DNA of 64,000 nt. Origin: Rhodococcus rhodochrous (GTDB taxonomy: Bacteria > Actinomycetota > Actinomycetes > Mycobacteriales > Mycobacteriaceae). The position numbers were made by a program, and so were the translations under genes. The notes below the pieces were generated by a model, which had not been told where the DNA came from, did not search any database, and saw nothing but the letters and a program-made list of their open reading frames with translations. Shown piece after piece: positions 26,131 to 46,796 of the stretch (positions are counted from its first letter, which is position 1; each line of letters opens with the position of its first letter). The stretch is from positions 1,169,444 through 1,233,443 of the forward strand of contig NZ_LT906450.1 in the NCBI RefSeq assembly GCF_900187265.1, in the 5' to 3' direction.

Positions 26131-26204
26131 GCCCCTATAGCCCAATTGGCAGAGGCAGCGGACTTAAAATCCGCCAAGTGTGGGTTCGAGTCCCACTGGG
26201 GGCA
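26131..26204 (+). tRNA. tRNA-Leu (anticodon TAA) with short variable loop
   Basis: 74-nt cloverleaf. The acceptor GCCCCTA/TGGGGGC has one G-T wobble. The D arm has AATTGGCAGA, the anticodon stem GCGGA/TCCGC holds the loop CTTAAAA (anticodon TAA, reading UUA), and the T arm GTGGG/CCCAC holds TTCGAGT. Discriminator base A; no encoded CCA. The variable loop is only 5 nt (CAAGT), a class I form, whereas bacterial leucine tRNAs are class II with a long arm. By anticodon and A73 it is leucine, but the shape is atypical. Confidence 0.9.
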
Positions 26205-26228
26205 CAGGGCCGGGGTCGTCCCCGATGC

Positions 26229-26294
26229 ATCCGCTACCTCTCTCGCCATCCGCTACAGCAATTGCCGTAGCGGATAGCGAATCTTGTAGCGGAT
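26229..26294. repeat. Symmetrical four-site repeat (ATCCGCTAC) with 19-bp spacing
   Basis: The 9-mer ATCCGCTAC occurs at 26229 and 26248 and its complement GTAGCGGAT at 26267 and 26286. All four start exactly 19 bp apart, with two-fold symmetry about 26261/26262. The central pair is part of a 28-bp near-perfect palindrome (one mismatch). It sits between the convergent tRNA-Leu and the ABC-transporter ATPase gene, so a bidirectional terminator or a cooperative protein-binding site are both possible. Confidence 0.9.
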
Positions 26295-26323
26295 GTACTG
26301 GTGGCGAACAGTTCGGCCGGTGA

Positions 26324-27094
26324 CTATCCCGAGGGCAACCTCCGTTGCGCCTCGTGTCGTGACCGGTGCAGGACCTCCATGAGCTCGTGTTCGAGCGCCA
26401 CGAACTCGCTCGACGCGCACGCCTCCAGGGTTCGGGGTCGGGGCAGGTGCACGCGTACCTCGTGCCGGACCCGCGCCGGTCGCGGACCGAGGACGACGAC
26501 CCGATCGGACAACAACACCGCCTCGCGCACGTTGTGCGTCACCATCAGCACTGTCCACCGGTGCTGCTGCCACACCTGTTGCAGCCACAGCTGCATCTCG
26601 GTGCGGGTGAGCGAATCCAGGGCGCCGAACGGTTCGTCGAGCAGGAGCACGTCGCGCCCCTGCAGCACCGTGCGTGCGAGCGACGCGCGTTGACGCATAC
26701 CGCCCGACAGTTGGTGCGGGGCAGCGTCCTCGAAGCCTGCCAGGCCGAAGGTCGGCAGCAGTTCGCGGGCGCGGGCGCGAGCGTCGGATCGTTGCACACC
26801 CTGCACCTCGATACCGAGGGTGCAGTTGTCGAGCACCGTCCGCCACGGGAACAGCAGATCCTTCTGCGGCATCAGCGCGACCCGCCCGGGTGCCGCGGGG
26901 GAGTCGCCGACGAGAACCTCTCCGGCGTCGGGCTGTTCGAGTCCCGCGACGATCGAGAACAGCGTCGACTTGCCGCACCCGCTCGGCCCGATGAGGGACA
27001 CGAACTCGCCGGGCTCCACAGCACAGTCGATGCCGTCGATCACCGCCCGGTCGCCGTACGACTTGTGGACCGAGGCCACCGTCACCGCATTCAT
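26324..27094 (-). CDS. thiZ: ABC transporter ATP-binding protein of a thiamine-precursor uptake system
   Basis: 256-residue ATPase of the nitrate/sulfonate/HMP type. Walker A GPSGCGKST (about residue 37), Q-loop MPQKD, signature LSGGMRQRASLA, Walker B VLLLDEPFGALD and the switch His in VTHNVREA are intact. The start lies in a 4-bp overlap with the permease stop. It is the third gene of a minus-strand operon controlled by the TPP riboswitch at 28921-29005, which points to hydroxymethylpyrimidine or a related thiamine precursor as substrate. The thiXYZ naming follows from this context. Confidence 0.88.
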   Translation of the reverse strand: MNAVTVASVHKSYGDRAVIDGIDCAVEPGEFVSLIGPSGCGKSTLFSIVAGLEQPDAGEVLVGDSPAAPGRVALMPQKDLLFPWRTVLDNCTLGIEVQGVQRSDARARARELLPTFGLAGFEDAAPHQLSGGMRQRASLARTVLQGRDVLLLDEPFGALDSLTRTEMQLWLQQVWQQHRWTVLMVTHNVREAVLLSDRVVVLGPRPARVRHEVRVHLPRPRTLEACASSEFVALEHELMEVLHRSRHEAQRRLPSG

Positions 27095-27885
27095 CTCTCA
27101 CCCCTCGTGAGCGCCCACGGCGCGACCACCCGTTCGACGACGAACGTCAGCGCGTACAACAGGAGTGACAGAGCAGCGGTCACCACTACGGCAGCGAGCA
27201 CGAGATCGGTGCGGAACGAGTTCTTCTGCGTGCTCATGTAGATGCCCAGACCGGATGTCGCGCCGACGTATTCCGCGAACACCGCACCCACTACGGCGTA
27301 GGTGATGCCGATCCGCAGGGCGGTGAAGAAGCGGGGGAGCGCGGACGGCAGGCGCACGTAACGGAACTGCTGCCACCGCGACGCGCCCATACTGCGCAGC
27401 AACGCGCCCGCCTCCCGGTCGGCCGCCGCGAACCCTTCGAGCAGCCCGATCGCGACGGGGAAGAACGTCACCAGCGCGATGACGAGGATCTTCGGCAGCA
27501 GTCCGAAACCGAACCAGATGATCATCAACGGCGCGATCGCGATGATCGGCAGGGTCTGCGACACCACGAACAACGGCACGAGGGCCCGCCGCAACCACGG
27601 CGAGAAGTCCACGACGATCGCGAGGGCCCACGCCAGTGCCAGCGACACGGCGAACCCGACGAGCGTGACCTGCAGTGTGGACCAGGCGTGCCCGGCGATG
27701 TCGACGCGATGCGCCCATCCCTGTGTGAGGACGCGCGCGGGAGAGGGCAGCACCTGCGGTCGGATACCGCTCACCACGACGTATGTCTGCCAGATCCCGA
27801 CCAGCACCCCGGCGACGAGCAGGGAGGGTAGGAATCGACGTGCGTGGCCGGTGTCAGCGGTCTTCGAGGTAGTCATCGGTGACAT
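27091..27885 (-). CDS. thiX: ABC transporter permease of a thiamine-precursor uptake system
   Basis: 264-residue inner-membrane permease with about six helices and the EAA loop in the form EGFAAADREAGALLRSMGAS. First helix at residues 18-38. Two in-frame ATG starts (27885, 27876) lie inside the end of the binding-protein gene, so the genes overlap by 23-32 bp; neither has a clear ribosome site, consistent with translational coupling. Family: BPD_transp_1, SsuC/TauC/ThiX group. Confidence 0.88.
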   Translation of the reverse strand: MSPMTTSKTADTGHARRFLPSLLVAGVLVGIWQTYVVVSGIRPQVLPSPARVLTQGWAHRVDIAGHAWSTLQVTLVGFAVSLALAWALAIVVDFSPWLRRALVPLFVVSQTLPIIAIAPLMIIWFGFGLLPKILVIALVTFFPVAIGLLEGFAAADREAGALLRSMGASRWQQFRYVRLPSALPRFFTALRIGITYAVVGAVFAEYVGATSGLGIYMSTQKNSFRTDLVLAAVVVTAALSLLLYALTFVVERVVAPWALTRGER

Positions 27886-28867
27886 AGGTCGACCAGTCCG
27901 GCTCGGTGGTCAACGGGCTGCCGTCGGGGCCGGACAGCACGCCGTTCTCGTAGAGGAATCGGGCGTAGCCCGACCATTTCCCGGCGTCGAGGACCCCGAC
28001 GGCGCCGGCGGCGTCGCGCATGTAGTCGGCGGCGAGCATGCGCTGGCTCTCGTAGACGAGTTCCTCGTCGGGGAAGGCCCCGGGATTCGCCTCGATCAGC
28101 GCCCGTGCCCCGCGATCGGGGTCGTCGGCTGCGATCCGGTAGCCCTGGTGCAGAGCCTGCACGAAAGCGCGCGCCTGCTCCGGGTTCTCCGACATCCAGT
28201 CCTCGTTGCCGTCGACGACGATCGCGTACGCATCGGGGAAGCCGTGGTCGGTGAAGCCGAAGTACCGCATGGGCAGTCCGCGGTGTTCGGCCTCGAGACC
28301 CTCCCACGCCAGGTACGACACGGTGAAGTCGGCGGTCGACGAGTAGACCGCCTCGTACGACGACGTCCCGAGCGTCACGCTCTCGAACTCACCGCGACCA
28401 CCATCGTTGCGGATCACCTCGGCGAGCATCTCGTCCTCGCCGGGGTTCGCGAAGCCCGCGAAGGTCTTGCCGTCGAGATCCGCGGGCCGCGTGATCTCGG
28501 CGTTGTCGGCCCGCACGGCGATTCCCGTCGCCCAGTGCTGCAGCGGTGCGAGGACCGCGACGGTCCGGGAACCCGCAGCTCTGGCGATGGTCGACGTGGC
28601 GTGCGTGGAGATCCCGAACTCGGCGCTACCGGCGTCGACGAGGGTGTCGGGCGTCGCGTTGTTGTACGGCAGGATCTCGACGTCGAGACCCGCCTCGGCG
28701 AACAGGCCCTCCTGCTGCGCCACGTACAGGCCGGTGTGGTTGGTGTTGGGCGTCCAGTCCAACGCGAATCGGATGGTGTCGCTCCCGGAATCGGACGAGC
28801 ACCCGACGACCGCGGAGAGTGCGGCGACGAGGGTGATCAGTCCGGCGAGAGTCCGCCGCGCGTTCAC
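27854..28867 (-). CDS. thiY: Substrate-binding lipoprotein, NMT1/THI5-like (HMP-type)
   Basis: Extracytoplasmic receptor of the transporter. The NMT1/THI5 fold is recognised from FALDWTPNTNHTGLYVAQQEG, then FGISTHATST and LAWEGLEAEHRG. The GTG at 28867 gives a compact lipoprotein signal (VNARRTLAGLITLVAALSA) ending in the lipobox VVGC; the upstream ATG at 28921 would add 18 residues without signal character and touches the riboswitch. 337 residues. Related yeast and bacterial proteins bind pyrimidine precursors of thiamine, which agrees with the riboswitch. Confidence 0.88.
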   Translation of the reverse strand: MNARRTLAGLITLVAALSAVVGCSSDSGSDTIRFALDWTPNTNHTGLYVAQQEGLFAEAGLDVEILPYNNATPDTLVDAGSAEFGISTHATSTIARAAGSRTVAVLAPLQHWATGIAVRADNAEITRPADLDGKTFAGFANPGEDEMLAEVIRNDGGRGEFESVTLGTSSYEAVYSSTADFTVSYLAWEGLEAEHRGLPMRYFGFTDHGFPDAYAIVVDGNEDWMSENPEQARAFVQALHQGYRIAADDPDRGARALIEANPGAFPDEELVYESQRMLAADYMRDAAGAVGVLDAGKWSGYARFLYENGVLSGPDGSPLTTEPDWSTYVTDDYLEDR

Positions 28868-28920
28868 TGCGCCGGCAGGGGACGGATCGATGTGGGGGCA
28901 GGCACGGTCATATCGGGACA

Positions 28921-29005
28921 TCCCTTCGTCAGCATTACCTGATCAGGTTCGACGGGTGTGATCTCAGCCCCGCTCGTGCGGAGCACCCCGTGTCACGGGC
29001 GACCC
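28921..29005 (-). promoter_or_regulatory. TPP (THI-box) riboswitch
   Basis: On the minus strand the leader contains the thi-box elements in order: CGGGGTGC, then GGCTGAGATCACACCCG, then GAACCTGATCAGGTAATGC and GACGAAGGGA at the 3' end. It ends about 50 bp before the chosen thiY start. Binding of thiamine pyrophosphate is expected to turn off the thiYXZ operon. The AAGGG of the last helix adjoins the ATG at 28921, so control of translation is possible. Confidence 0.95.
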
Positions 29006-29268: not shown

Positions 29269-30814
29269 TTAGTTGGTGGTGATTAGATCACGCAGACGCT
29301 CGGCTGGGGTATCCCAGCCGAGCGTTTTGCGTGGCCGGCCGTTGAGTTCCTGGGCGACGTGCTCGAGGTCCGCCGGGCTGTAGACACTCAGATCGGTGCC
29401 CTTGGGGAAATACTGCCGCAGCAGTCCGTTGGTGTTCTCGTTGGTGCCGCGTTGCCAGGGGCTGGCCGGGTCACAGAAGTACACGGCCATATCGGCAGCG
29501 ATACCGAACTGCTTGTGCCGGGCCATCTCGGCGCCTTGATCCCAGGTCAGCGAGCCACGAAGATGCGTGGGCAGGTCTTTCATCGCGGCGATGAGCGCGT
29601 CCCGCACGGATTCGGCGTCGTGCCCGTTCGGCAGGTGCAGCAGCATCGTGTAGCGGGTGGTGCGTTCGACGAGGGTGCCGATCGCGGTCTTGTTCAGCTC
29701 ACCGGTGATCAAATCGCCTTCCCAGCGTCCGGGCACCGCACGGTCGGCGACCTCGGCGGGCCGGTCACTGATCATCACCATCGGATCGGTGAATCGCTGA
29801 TACCGTTCGCCGTCCGCGCGGTGCGGTTTACGTCTCGCCCGACCGGTCCGAAGCGCCTGTTGCACTTGCTTTTTGAGCCCCCCTCGGGCTTGGAAGTAGA
29901 GGGCTTGGTAGATCGTTTCGTGGCTCACCCGCATACTTTCGTCGTCGGGATGATCCCGGCGTAGACGGTGCGAGATCTGCTCCGGCGACAACTGTCCGGG
30001 ACAGGCCTTCCTCGACCGCTGCCCGCAGGACCGTGTTCACCACCAGTTTGGACTGCTTCGGCCGCGCCCGGGCGGCAGCGGCGGCCCGATCGGCCCGATA
30101 CGGCAGGTACCTGCCCTCGATGCTGTGCCGACGAACCTCCCGCGAGACGGTCGAGACGTTCTTGCCGATCCGAGCGGCGATGGTCCGCAACGAATCCTCG
30201 ACGAGCAGGCCGTCGGCGATCGCGATCCGGTCCTCGGTCGACAGATACCGGTCGCTGATCGCCGGCCGTCCGCTGCCCTCACAGGCCACACTGGTCACAG
30301 ACTGTGTGTAGACGGTTCCGTGGTGGTAATCCACGACCCGCCCATCGGGATGAATCCGCTTGCTGTTCGAGCGCCGGATTCCCTGACGCCAGTCCCGTGC
30401 GGTGCGTTCGTTGACCCCGACCTCACGGGCTGCTCGTCTGGCCGACCAGCCCGCTGCGATCAACTCCAGACAACGACGCTTGGCTTCGGGTTTTCCCTTC
30501 GGTGAGATCTTCCCTTTGCCGACCAGTCCCTCGTCCACCAGGATCCGGCGGGCTACCGAGTGCGCGACCTTCGATGCCTTCGCCGCCCGGGTGATCGAGC
30601 CCGTCTCCTCGTAGACGGTCACGATCACCCGGCGGTCAGCGGTGCCGGCCGGGCCGCGGGACTTACCCATCGGCCGGCCGATGGCCCTCAAGATCGCGTA
30701 ACACCGCTGCCGGGGCAGCCCGAACGCGGCCGCGGCCTCCTTGACCGGAATCCCGGCATCGATCAGTCGTGCCAGTTGGTCACCGAACCGGTCGCAGTCC
30801 TCCGTAAACGACAT
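29269..30814 (-). pseudogene. IS30-family transposase, frameshifted
   Basis: The first frame (start at 30814) encodes two helix-turn-helix regions typical of IS30 (PVKEAAAAFGLPRQRCY; LSTEDRIAIADGLL then IAARIGKNVSTVSREVRRH) and reaches VEEGL. The frame then changes near 29992 (one extra base) and continues as SPEQISHRLRRDHPDDESM with the complete DDE domain: WEGDLITG, LTWDQGAEM and the Glu of QRGTNENTNGLL. Both halves are otherwise well preserved, so the break is recent, a sequencing slip, or less likely a programmed shift. It reads on to 29269. Confidence 0.88.
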
Positions 30815-46646: not shown

Positions 46647-46796
46647 CTCTGGTCACTCGGGAAACACGGATCCCACTGGTCCCAGTACTAGAACGTGTTC
46701 CTGAATATATGTGATAAGAACATCCGGAAGCCGTACTGGTGATCGAACTCACAGCTACGGTGAGAGCGGTTTGATGGATGGATGTGGGGGTAGCGG

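Follow-up and report, generated by a model that had tools for sequence, protein, structure and literature searches.

A dispersed family of four-site palindromes in Rhodococcus and related bacteria, found on both sides of many genes for predicted AbiEi/DUF559-like proteins

In REP/RAYT systems, as Nunvar et al. (2010, PMC2817692) describe them, the enzyme gene is flanked by two REPs with which it appears to coevolve, it changes faster than its neighbours, and REPs usually number more than 100 copies per genome. REP palindromes are also known targets of insertion sequences (IS), according to Tobes and Pareja (2006, PMC1525189). A further point of comparison is provided by AbiEi-type proteins. 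Rv2827c of M. tuberculosis, an AbiEi relative, binds four repeats and gives four bound species, and the operators of AbiEi and Rv2827c (type IV toxin-antitoxin) consist of 23-bp repeats, in two pairs, at the promoter (both from PMC7319586). Finally, TRIT is a terminator model for Mycobacterium tuberculosis, a single species of the same wider group, and is named in PMC3526491.

The locus analysed here lies in a stretch of 64,000 nucleotides from Rhodococcus rhodochrous (the window) and carries one member of a dispersed family of palindromes of about 68 bp that occurs in Rhodococcus and related bacteria. Like REPs, these palindromes are dispersed and extragenic. The presence of an enzyme gene between two copies, the apparent coevolution of flanks and gene, and a gene that changes faster than its neighbours are further likenesses. 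In place of the Y1 tyrosine transposase there is an AbiEi/DUF559 protein here, each palindrome holds four motifs at a 19-nt step, which is unlike REP/RAYT, and the window's genome (G000) has at least 12 uninterrupted and 7 split copies, against the usual figure of more than 100 REPs in that source. The best reading is that the system works in a REP/RAYT-like way with another enzyme, and we do not file it as a REP/RAYT member. With the AbiEi and Rv2827c operators it shares an AbiEi-type DNA-binding region and four repeats that can be bound together; here, however, four motifs of about 9 nt make up a single palindrome that usually stands behind a gene, and the protein has a DUF559-like region.

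Table 1. The window palindrome and its immediate neighbours (window positions)
Feature	Position	Strand	Source
68-bp four-site palindrome, solo family copy, motif dialect ATCCGCTAC	26228..26295	.	model R1
Motif copy 1, outer left	26229..26237	+	
Motif copy 2, inner left, 19 nt from copy 1	26248..26256	+	
Motif copy 3, inner right, inverted	26267..26275	-	
Motif copy 4, outer right, inverted	26286..26294	-	
Central AATT of the window palindrome	26260..26263	.	
tRNA-Leu (TAA), ending 22 bp before the window palindrome	26131..26205	+	
ABC transporter ATPase gene, convergent with tRNA-Leu; stop-codon side 28 bp from the palindrome	26324..27094	-	

A sequence-only reading of the window had described four copies of ATCCGCTAC at exact 19-bp steps, symmetric about 26261/26262, and this description is exact; the 28-bp near-palindrome that it placed at the centre reads ATCCGCTAC-AGCAATTGCC-GTAGCGGAT, with one mispair. 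The ATCCGCTAC 9-mer occurs 5 times in the window against 0.31 expected, while 100 shuffles reach 3 at most, and the fifth copy, at 46790, is isolated. Positions 1-68 of model R1 were matched on both strands at G000:C1:1195671-1195738. The region folds far more stably than its own shuffles on each strand (z -6.84 and -8.25), and no Rfam family reached its gathering score over the element (best 25.7 bits, with 110 required).

Several neighbouring features were also recorded. A TPP riboswitch (window 28904-29000, minus strand) heads a gene set (26324-28921, minus strand) for a THI5/NMT1-like binding protein, a permease, and an ATPase; since the longest reading frame of the THI5/NMT1-like gene overlaps the aptamer, its true start is probably further downstream. 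A likely transposase (29269-30814, minus strand) comprises two overlapping reading frames, is possibly frameshifted, and has an rve domain in one of the frames (29269-29991). The window's own locus has two palindromes a few hundred bp apart in G006 (L041) and G004 (L042), the first of G004's two being IS-split, and a single palindrome between the tRNA-Leu and ABC genes in G000. Behind the same tRNA-Leu(TAA), G010 (L023) has a palindrome in a different dialect, TTCCCGCGG, and G012 (L007) has, by eye, an ordinary hairpin with a T-run.

When the window region was searched by BLAST against 61 genomes, the element was also found elsewhere in its own genome and genus. A covariance model built from an alignment of 22 copies identified at least 12 uninterrupted palindromes in G000 (24 strand matches) and gave matches in 15 of 18 genomes of the genus. 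A second model, built from 80 genus copies (the 78-nt copy of G002, 1 of 81 sites, was omitted), matched at least 47 of the 151 family genomes searched, from 16 of 31 genera, the own genus included. These searches scored part of the candidates (150 of 2643 in G000; 34 of about 4000 per genome in the family search), so the per-genome counts are lower bounds, and with 7 IS-split copies besides the uninterrupted ones G000 has at least 19 palindromes. All 12 uninterrupted copies lie inside 4.63-5.27 and 0-1.71 Mb, and 3 of the 7 IS-split copies lie outside those ranges (2.00, 2.51, and 4.06 Mb). A pattern scan of named genomes found one bearer, Rhodococcus gordoniae DSM 44689. For positional analyses we compiled a catalogue of 81 sites from 12 genomes among the matches listed, with a contig-end match (G010:C99) dropped. 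The open-licence PubMed Central literature, the only literature covered, gave no description of the four-site palindrome family with its gene partner.

Given that a covariance model might favour its own source copies, we tested the register with a plain, model-free pattern, CCGCTAC-N(2-26)-TCCGCTAC, in six genomes, using the reversed pattern as a control. The gap was exactly 11, corresponding to a 19-nt step, in 37 of 39 matches, whereas the 29 matches to the control were scattered over all 25 gap sizes; the 19-bp pairs that the sequence-only reading had proposed looking for genome-wide and in relatives recur at a fixed step, and the register is no peculiarity of the window copy. Across the 80 aligned genus copies, length changes are confined to the centre, where the inverted inner pair is separated by 10, 11, or 12 nt, and the arms have no internal indel; one copy lacks its outermost base. 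Two-sided changes at paired positions number 263 against 150.8 +/- 11.2 after shuffling (0/500 as high), a covariation that was weak in the first 22 copies and clear with 80. Pairing exceeds permutation in the outer stem, at positions 15-20, and in the inner stem (0/2000 each), and the outer motif copies are paired at 0.747 against 0.688 permuted (0/2000), the inner pair being better conserved than the outer (0.866 vs 0.747 paired). At the four spacer positions (11-14) there is no pairing above chance (408/2000 permutations). With the spacer unpaired and the arms free of indels, spacer sequence is free and spacer length is fixed.

The same register holds beyond the genus. Outer/inner identity in 23 copies from further family genomes is 0.743 at offset 19 and does not exceed 0.374 at any of the offsets 10-18, 20, and 21. 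Where a direct repeat is clear, offset 19 fits best in 42 of 45 palindromes of the genus pool and in 46 of 50 of the family pool, and offset 20 fits best in 3 of those 50; a 20-nt step is also seen by eye in L160 and L166. The 19-nt step is therefore real but not absolute across the wider family. At orthologous places with shared flanks (L034/L047, L036/L046/L052, L038/L045/L053) the outer copies are still recognisable, so reduction to a central hairpin did not occur there. Recurring at the 19-nt step, pairing above permutation, and recognisable at orthologous places, the outer copies do matter, in agreement with the weight they had been given from the window alone.

The motif varies by genome and by locus, and the four copies within one palindrome tend to agree (0.733 within a palindrome vs 0.569 between palindromes of different genomes; 0/1000 permutations, 23 copies). 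Examples of such dialects are CTCCCGCGACC, CTCCCGCTCCC, and TGCCGCTCC, the last from a palindrome with a 20-nt step. G117 and G166 each have two dialects, which are unmixed inside the palindromes seen, with modest support from a within-genome permutation (50/2000). In the window's genus, agreement between a palindrome's own outer and inner copies (0.776) is no better than that between different palindromes of the same genome (0.766). When dispersed dialects were compared with those at the partner genes described below, the own genome was the best match in just 4 of 17 genomes, and several genomes have dispersed dialects for which a matching gene of their own is absent.

Inverted DNA uptake sequences, as in Neisseria and Haemophilus, are lineage-specific dialect motifs that stand as inverted repeats behind genes. 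Here, in contrast, the single motif is not enriched outside palindromes (72 occurrences vs 51 for a reversed control; by strand, 37+35 vs 22+29), and we rejected an uptake motif. By our own count, palindromes, their split halves, or a remnant account for 29 of the 72 occurrences, so that 43 stand elsewhere.

The palindromes stand mostly behind genes. Of the 81 catalogued sites, 77 have the 3' end of a protein-coding gene on at least one side, and in 49 the nearest stop codon is no more than 15 bp away, compared with 0 of 48 flanking gene 5' ends that close; orthologous copies enter these counts several times and are not independent, and gene positions come from our own coding-score script, not from annotation. 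In G000 alone, 7 of 12 palindromes are this near to a stop codon, the window copy being 28 bp away. The hairpins are stable (median -41.1 kcal/mol, 81 copies). The 8 nt past the element hold 1.52 T on average against 1.57 in control windows, at least four T occur there in 7 of 81 copies against 7.7% of control windows, and a terminator scan detected no T-tract at the window copy. The notion of a simple terminator thus stands as regards the hairpin and the 3'-end position, but the T-tract is absent and four equal motifs are unneeded for termination; we rejected a plain intrinsic terminator on these two grounds. Genes flanking the palindromes have mixed functions, and the suggested thi or transport regulon was not borne out; a thi regulon was rejected for this reason.

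We then considered the proteins encoded beside palindromes. In a set of 64 flanking proteins (23 family loci and 9 genus sites), 5 from five genomes are mutually homologous. By sequence comparison, this partner protein, of about 300 aa, is predicted to have an N-terminal AbiEi-type winged-helix region and a C-terminal restriction-endonuclease-like (DUF559/MTES_1575) region. Pfam AbiEi_4 matches L104 at 5.2e-7 and, at E <= 0.01, L104, L099, L156, and L150, and not L135, L166, or L151; the PADLOC AbiEi profile matches 5 of 5 proteins tried (best 1e-19). The endonuclease assignment is weak, resting on DUF559 matches that exceed the cut-off of 20.6 bits in L271 (21.9 bits), fall below it in L104 (12.4 bits), and are missing in L156, L166, L248, and L265; of two distant homologues scanned, L287 passes the cut-off and L284 falls short of it. 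Five residues of the C-terminal region (E194, D227, E238, D240, K244) are invariant in 8 of 8 partner proteins. Single-sequence structure prediction was too poor to use (pLDDT 38.6). No match was found in NCBIfam for 5 of 5 partner proteins or among solved structures by sequence search, and none of 90 pattern-matching stretches in viral contigs was confirmed as a relative.

A homologue search with eight partner proteins found the gene in 24 of 24 genomes, all chosen for having palindromes. Six plasmid records carry relatives of at most 42% identity; the Tsukamurella plasmids NZ_LR134465.1, NZ_LR134451.1, and NZ_LR134463.1 have AbiEi/DUF559 relatives of 37-42% identity. The G000 gene with the window's motif dialect lies outside the window (G000:C1:4060823-4061686), and its left palindrome is IS-split and its right one a remnant. 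A RAYT was also considered as partner and rejected, because the Y1 tyrosine transposase family PF01797 has no match in six element-rich genomes (G000, G002, G004, G006, G012, G015). A PF01797 match occurs in 5 of 18 genus genomes, and the four such loci fetched (L169-L172) gave no palindrome.

Palindromes are enriched on both sides of the partner gene. With model R2, a palindrome was found beside the gene in 23 of the 30 best loci (E up to 0.1). Eight of these 30 loci had been found through their palindrome; 15 of the other 22 have one, compared with 3 of 29 control loci. We also used a motif-free scan whose score takes in architecture only, adding the pairing of the arms to the identity between outer and inner copies at 19 nt, with a threshold of 33 that exceeds the best of 31 window chunks (31) and the best of 60 shuffles (31). 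Being fixed at 19 nt, it overlooks any palindrome whose step is 20 nt, as in L209; left and right refer to contig orientation. It was applied to 90 of 150 homologue matches. Of these, 78 belong to the 80 best and are called close, and 12 come from the remaining 70 and are called distant; 60 of the 90 were added homologues (48 close, 12 distant). Among the 78 close homologues, palindromes lie on both sides in 32, on one side in 16, and on neither in 30; leaving out the 8 loci found through palindromes, the 70 remaining give 25, 16, and 29. None of the 12 distant homologues has a flanking palindrome, and 2 of 29 control loci do, both near tRNA-Leu. The G000 gene (L207) is among the 30 without palindromes, its own being split and cut short. 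The 3' palindrome lies at a median of 2 bp from the stop codon (n=37) and the 5' palindrome at a median of 107 bp ahead of the called start (n=40).

The two palindromes of a gene share a gene-specific motif. Left/right motif identity is 0.75 for the same gene and 0.524 for other genes (0/5000 permutations); the true partner ranked first in 17 of 32 cases, and in 7 it came fifth or lower, after better ones. Protein similarity and motif similarity are correlated across 46 loci (Mantel r 0.25, 0/2000), with motifs more alike above 60% protein identity and no trend below it; common descent may be the source of this correlation. Bracketing by palindromes is not limited to the nuclease-like gene. 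In L103 (G015:C38:44747-46057) two palindromes bracket two genes, one TetR-type and one DUF4442, and G004 and G006 have one palindrome there.

Different units occupy the same locus in sister genomes. The gene runs one way in G015 and G006 and the opposite way in G004 and G002, with flanks 92.7-96.1% identical and proteins 76.6-79.4% identical between the two groups; G000 agrees with G015/G006 on the one comparable flank. At another locus, G166 and G117 have flanks that are 98.6% and 93.9% identical, proteins of 55% identity, opposite gene orientation, and different dialects on both sides. Exchange of whole units is the best explanation for such differences. With the G166 flanks as query, the locus was found in 8 of 8 genus genomes, and it forms an intergenic hotspot (L294-L309, locus of G166:C234:10340-12321). 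Its flanks are about 1.2-1.4 kb apart in three of these genomes and 5.9 to 46 kb apart in another four; in G035 they are 100 bp apart, and the sequence there is read as one degenerate palindrome, a candidate solo site, with a score of 28 that is below the threshold of 33. The 415 flank comparisons, drawn mostly from palindrome-bearing loci and in 268 cases with the palindrome still present, showed no clean empty site and no target duplication of the palindrome itself.

The palindromes are also preferred landing sites for an IS. An IS3-family element is present in 7 copies in G000 and 4 in G004, with none in six other genomes searched, and 11 of the 11 copies found are inserted at the centre of a four-site palindrome (G000:C1, G004:C1; L094, L193-L202); one of them splits the G004 copy next to tRNA-Leu. 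By eye, the target duplication is about 4 bp at the centre (AATT, GATT, CACA, TGCG, CGTA), the 4-bp target being positional and not sequence-specific. This parallels the targeting of REP palindromes in that an IS is highly selective for a dispersed palindrome; the IS, the palindrome family, and the bacterial group all differ here.

With moderate confidence, we read the window palindrome as a solo member of a family that belongs to a palindrome-gene-palindrome unit. The four motifs would be bound by the AbiEi-like regions of as many as four protein molecules; by analogy with Rv2827c, each arm would carry two molecules a fixed step apart, and the centre that separates the arms would be flexible. 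Cutting at or near the palindrome might then fall to the endonuclease-like region, and would move or copy the unit. Solo palindromes would be non-autonomous copies, or remnants after gene loss. Insertion behind a stop codon does little harm, which could account for the palindromes' position there, and a long hairpin at that place may also serve as an RNA 3'-end structure. Against the unit model, the palindrome copy number is low for a transposing repeat, 30 of 78 close homologues have no palindrome above the threshold, other genes are bracketed as well, dispersed dialects seldom find their best match in their own genome, and the flank comparisons gave no clean empty site. The 20-nt steps, the missing within-palindrome excess of motif agreement in the genus, the weak DUF559 matches, and the selection of the 24 genomes by their palindromes also count against it. 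More tentatively, and as a possibility on which we would not insist, the units may constitute a new class of mobile system, in which AbiEi-winged-helix/Vsr-DUF559-like fusions recognise, cut, and spread palindromes of 19-bp register, each paralogue has its own dialect, solo copies are non-autonomous elements behind stop codons, and competing units take each other's place at loci that they share. The earlier suggestion of a cooperative site or recombinase arrangement came close to the unit model in linking a multi-site element with a DNA-processing enzyme, here a predicted one; its tie to tRNA attachment did not hold.

Four other explanations were weighed against the unit model. The palindromes could be bidirectional terminators or RNA 3'-end hairpins that share sequence and are kept for ending convergent transcripts, with the AbiEi/DUF559 flanking incidental. 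The concentration at gene 3' ends (77/81 sites, 49/81 within 15 bp of a stop, 0/48 at 5' ends, orthologues not being independent), the covariation of paired positions, and the T-run hairpin seen by eye behind the same tRNA-Leu in G012 speak for this, but the copies have no T-tract, and neither the four equal motifs at a 19-nt step, with arms free of indels in the genus copies, nor the gene-specific motif that the two flanks of the nuclease-like gene have in common is explained; we regard it as unlikely. Less likely still is an autoregulated AbiEi-type gene, whose upstream palindrome would be an operator and downstream palindrome a terminator, with solo copies as regulator sites elsewhere. AbiEi and Rv2827c do bind inverted repeats at their own promoters, as PMC7319586 reports, and the different placement of 5' and 3' palindromes would suit such roles. 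Solo copies, however, are mostly at gene 3' ends and not at promoters, and the units of sister species at one locus differ in gene, orientation, and both palindromes.

The palindromes might instead be enzyme-free repeats, homogenised by template switching at hairpins and later used as IS insertion targets. Template switching could make two arms complementary, genes other than the nuclease-like one are bracketed as well, and all 11 IS3-family copies found sit at palindrome centres; the 19-nt step and the link to one gene family are nevertheless left unexplained, and we consider the idea improbable. An integrase attachment site at the tRNA-Leu 3' end, which the sequence-only reading had entertained, is scarcely credible: the window copy does lie 22 bp behind the tRNA gene, and G010 has a copy of another dialect behind the same tRNA, but the genome-wide distribution, with 77 of 81 sites flanking protein-coding genes, contradicts it, and an integrase is absent from the Pfam families listed for the flanking genes (25 of 108 families).

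If the unit model is true, these palindromes and their genes would have come to the REP/RAYT arrangement by a second route, unrelated to the first. The multi-copy AbiEi/DUF559 family, present in 24 of 24 genomes that were selected for palindromes, gains a candidate DNA substrate and a testable job, and its locus-specific dialects would offer matched sets of proteins and DNA sites from which a recognition code may be read.
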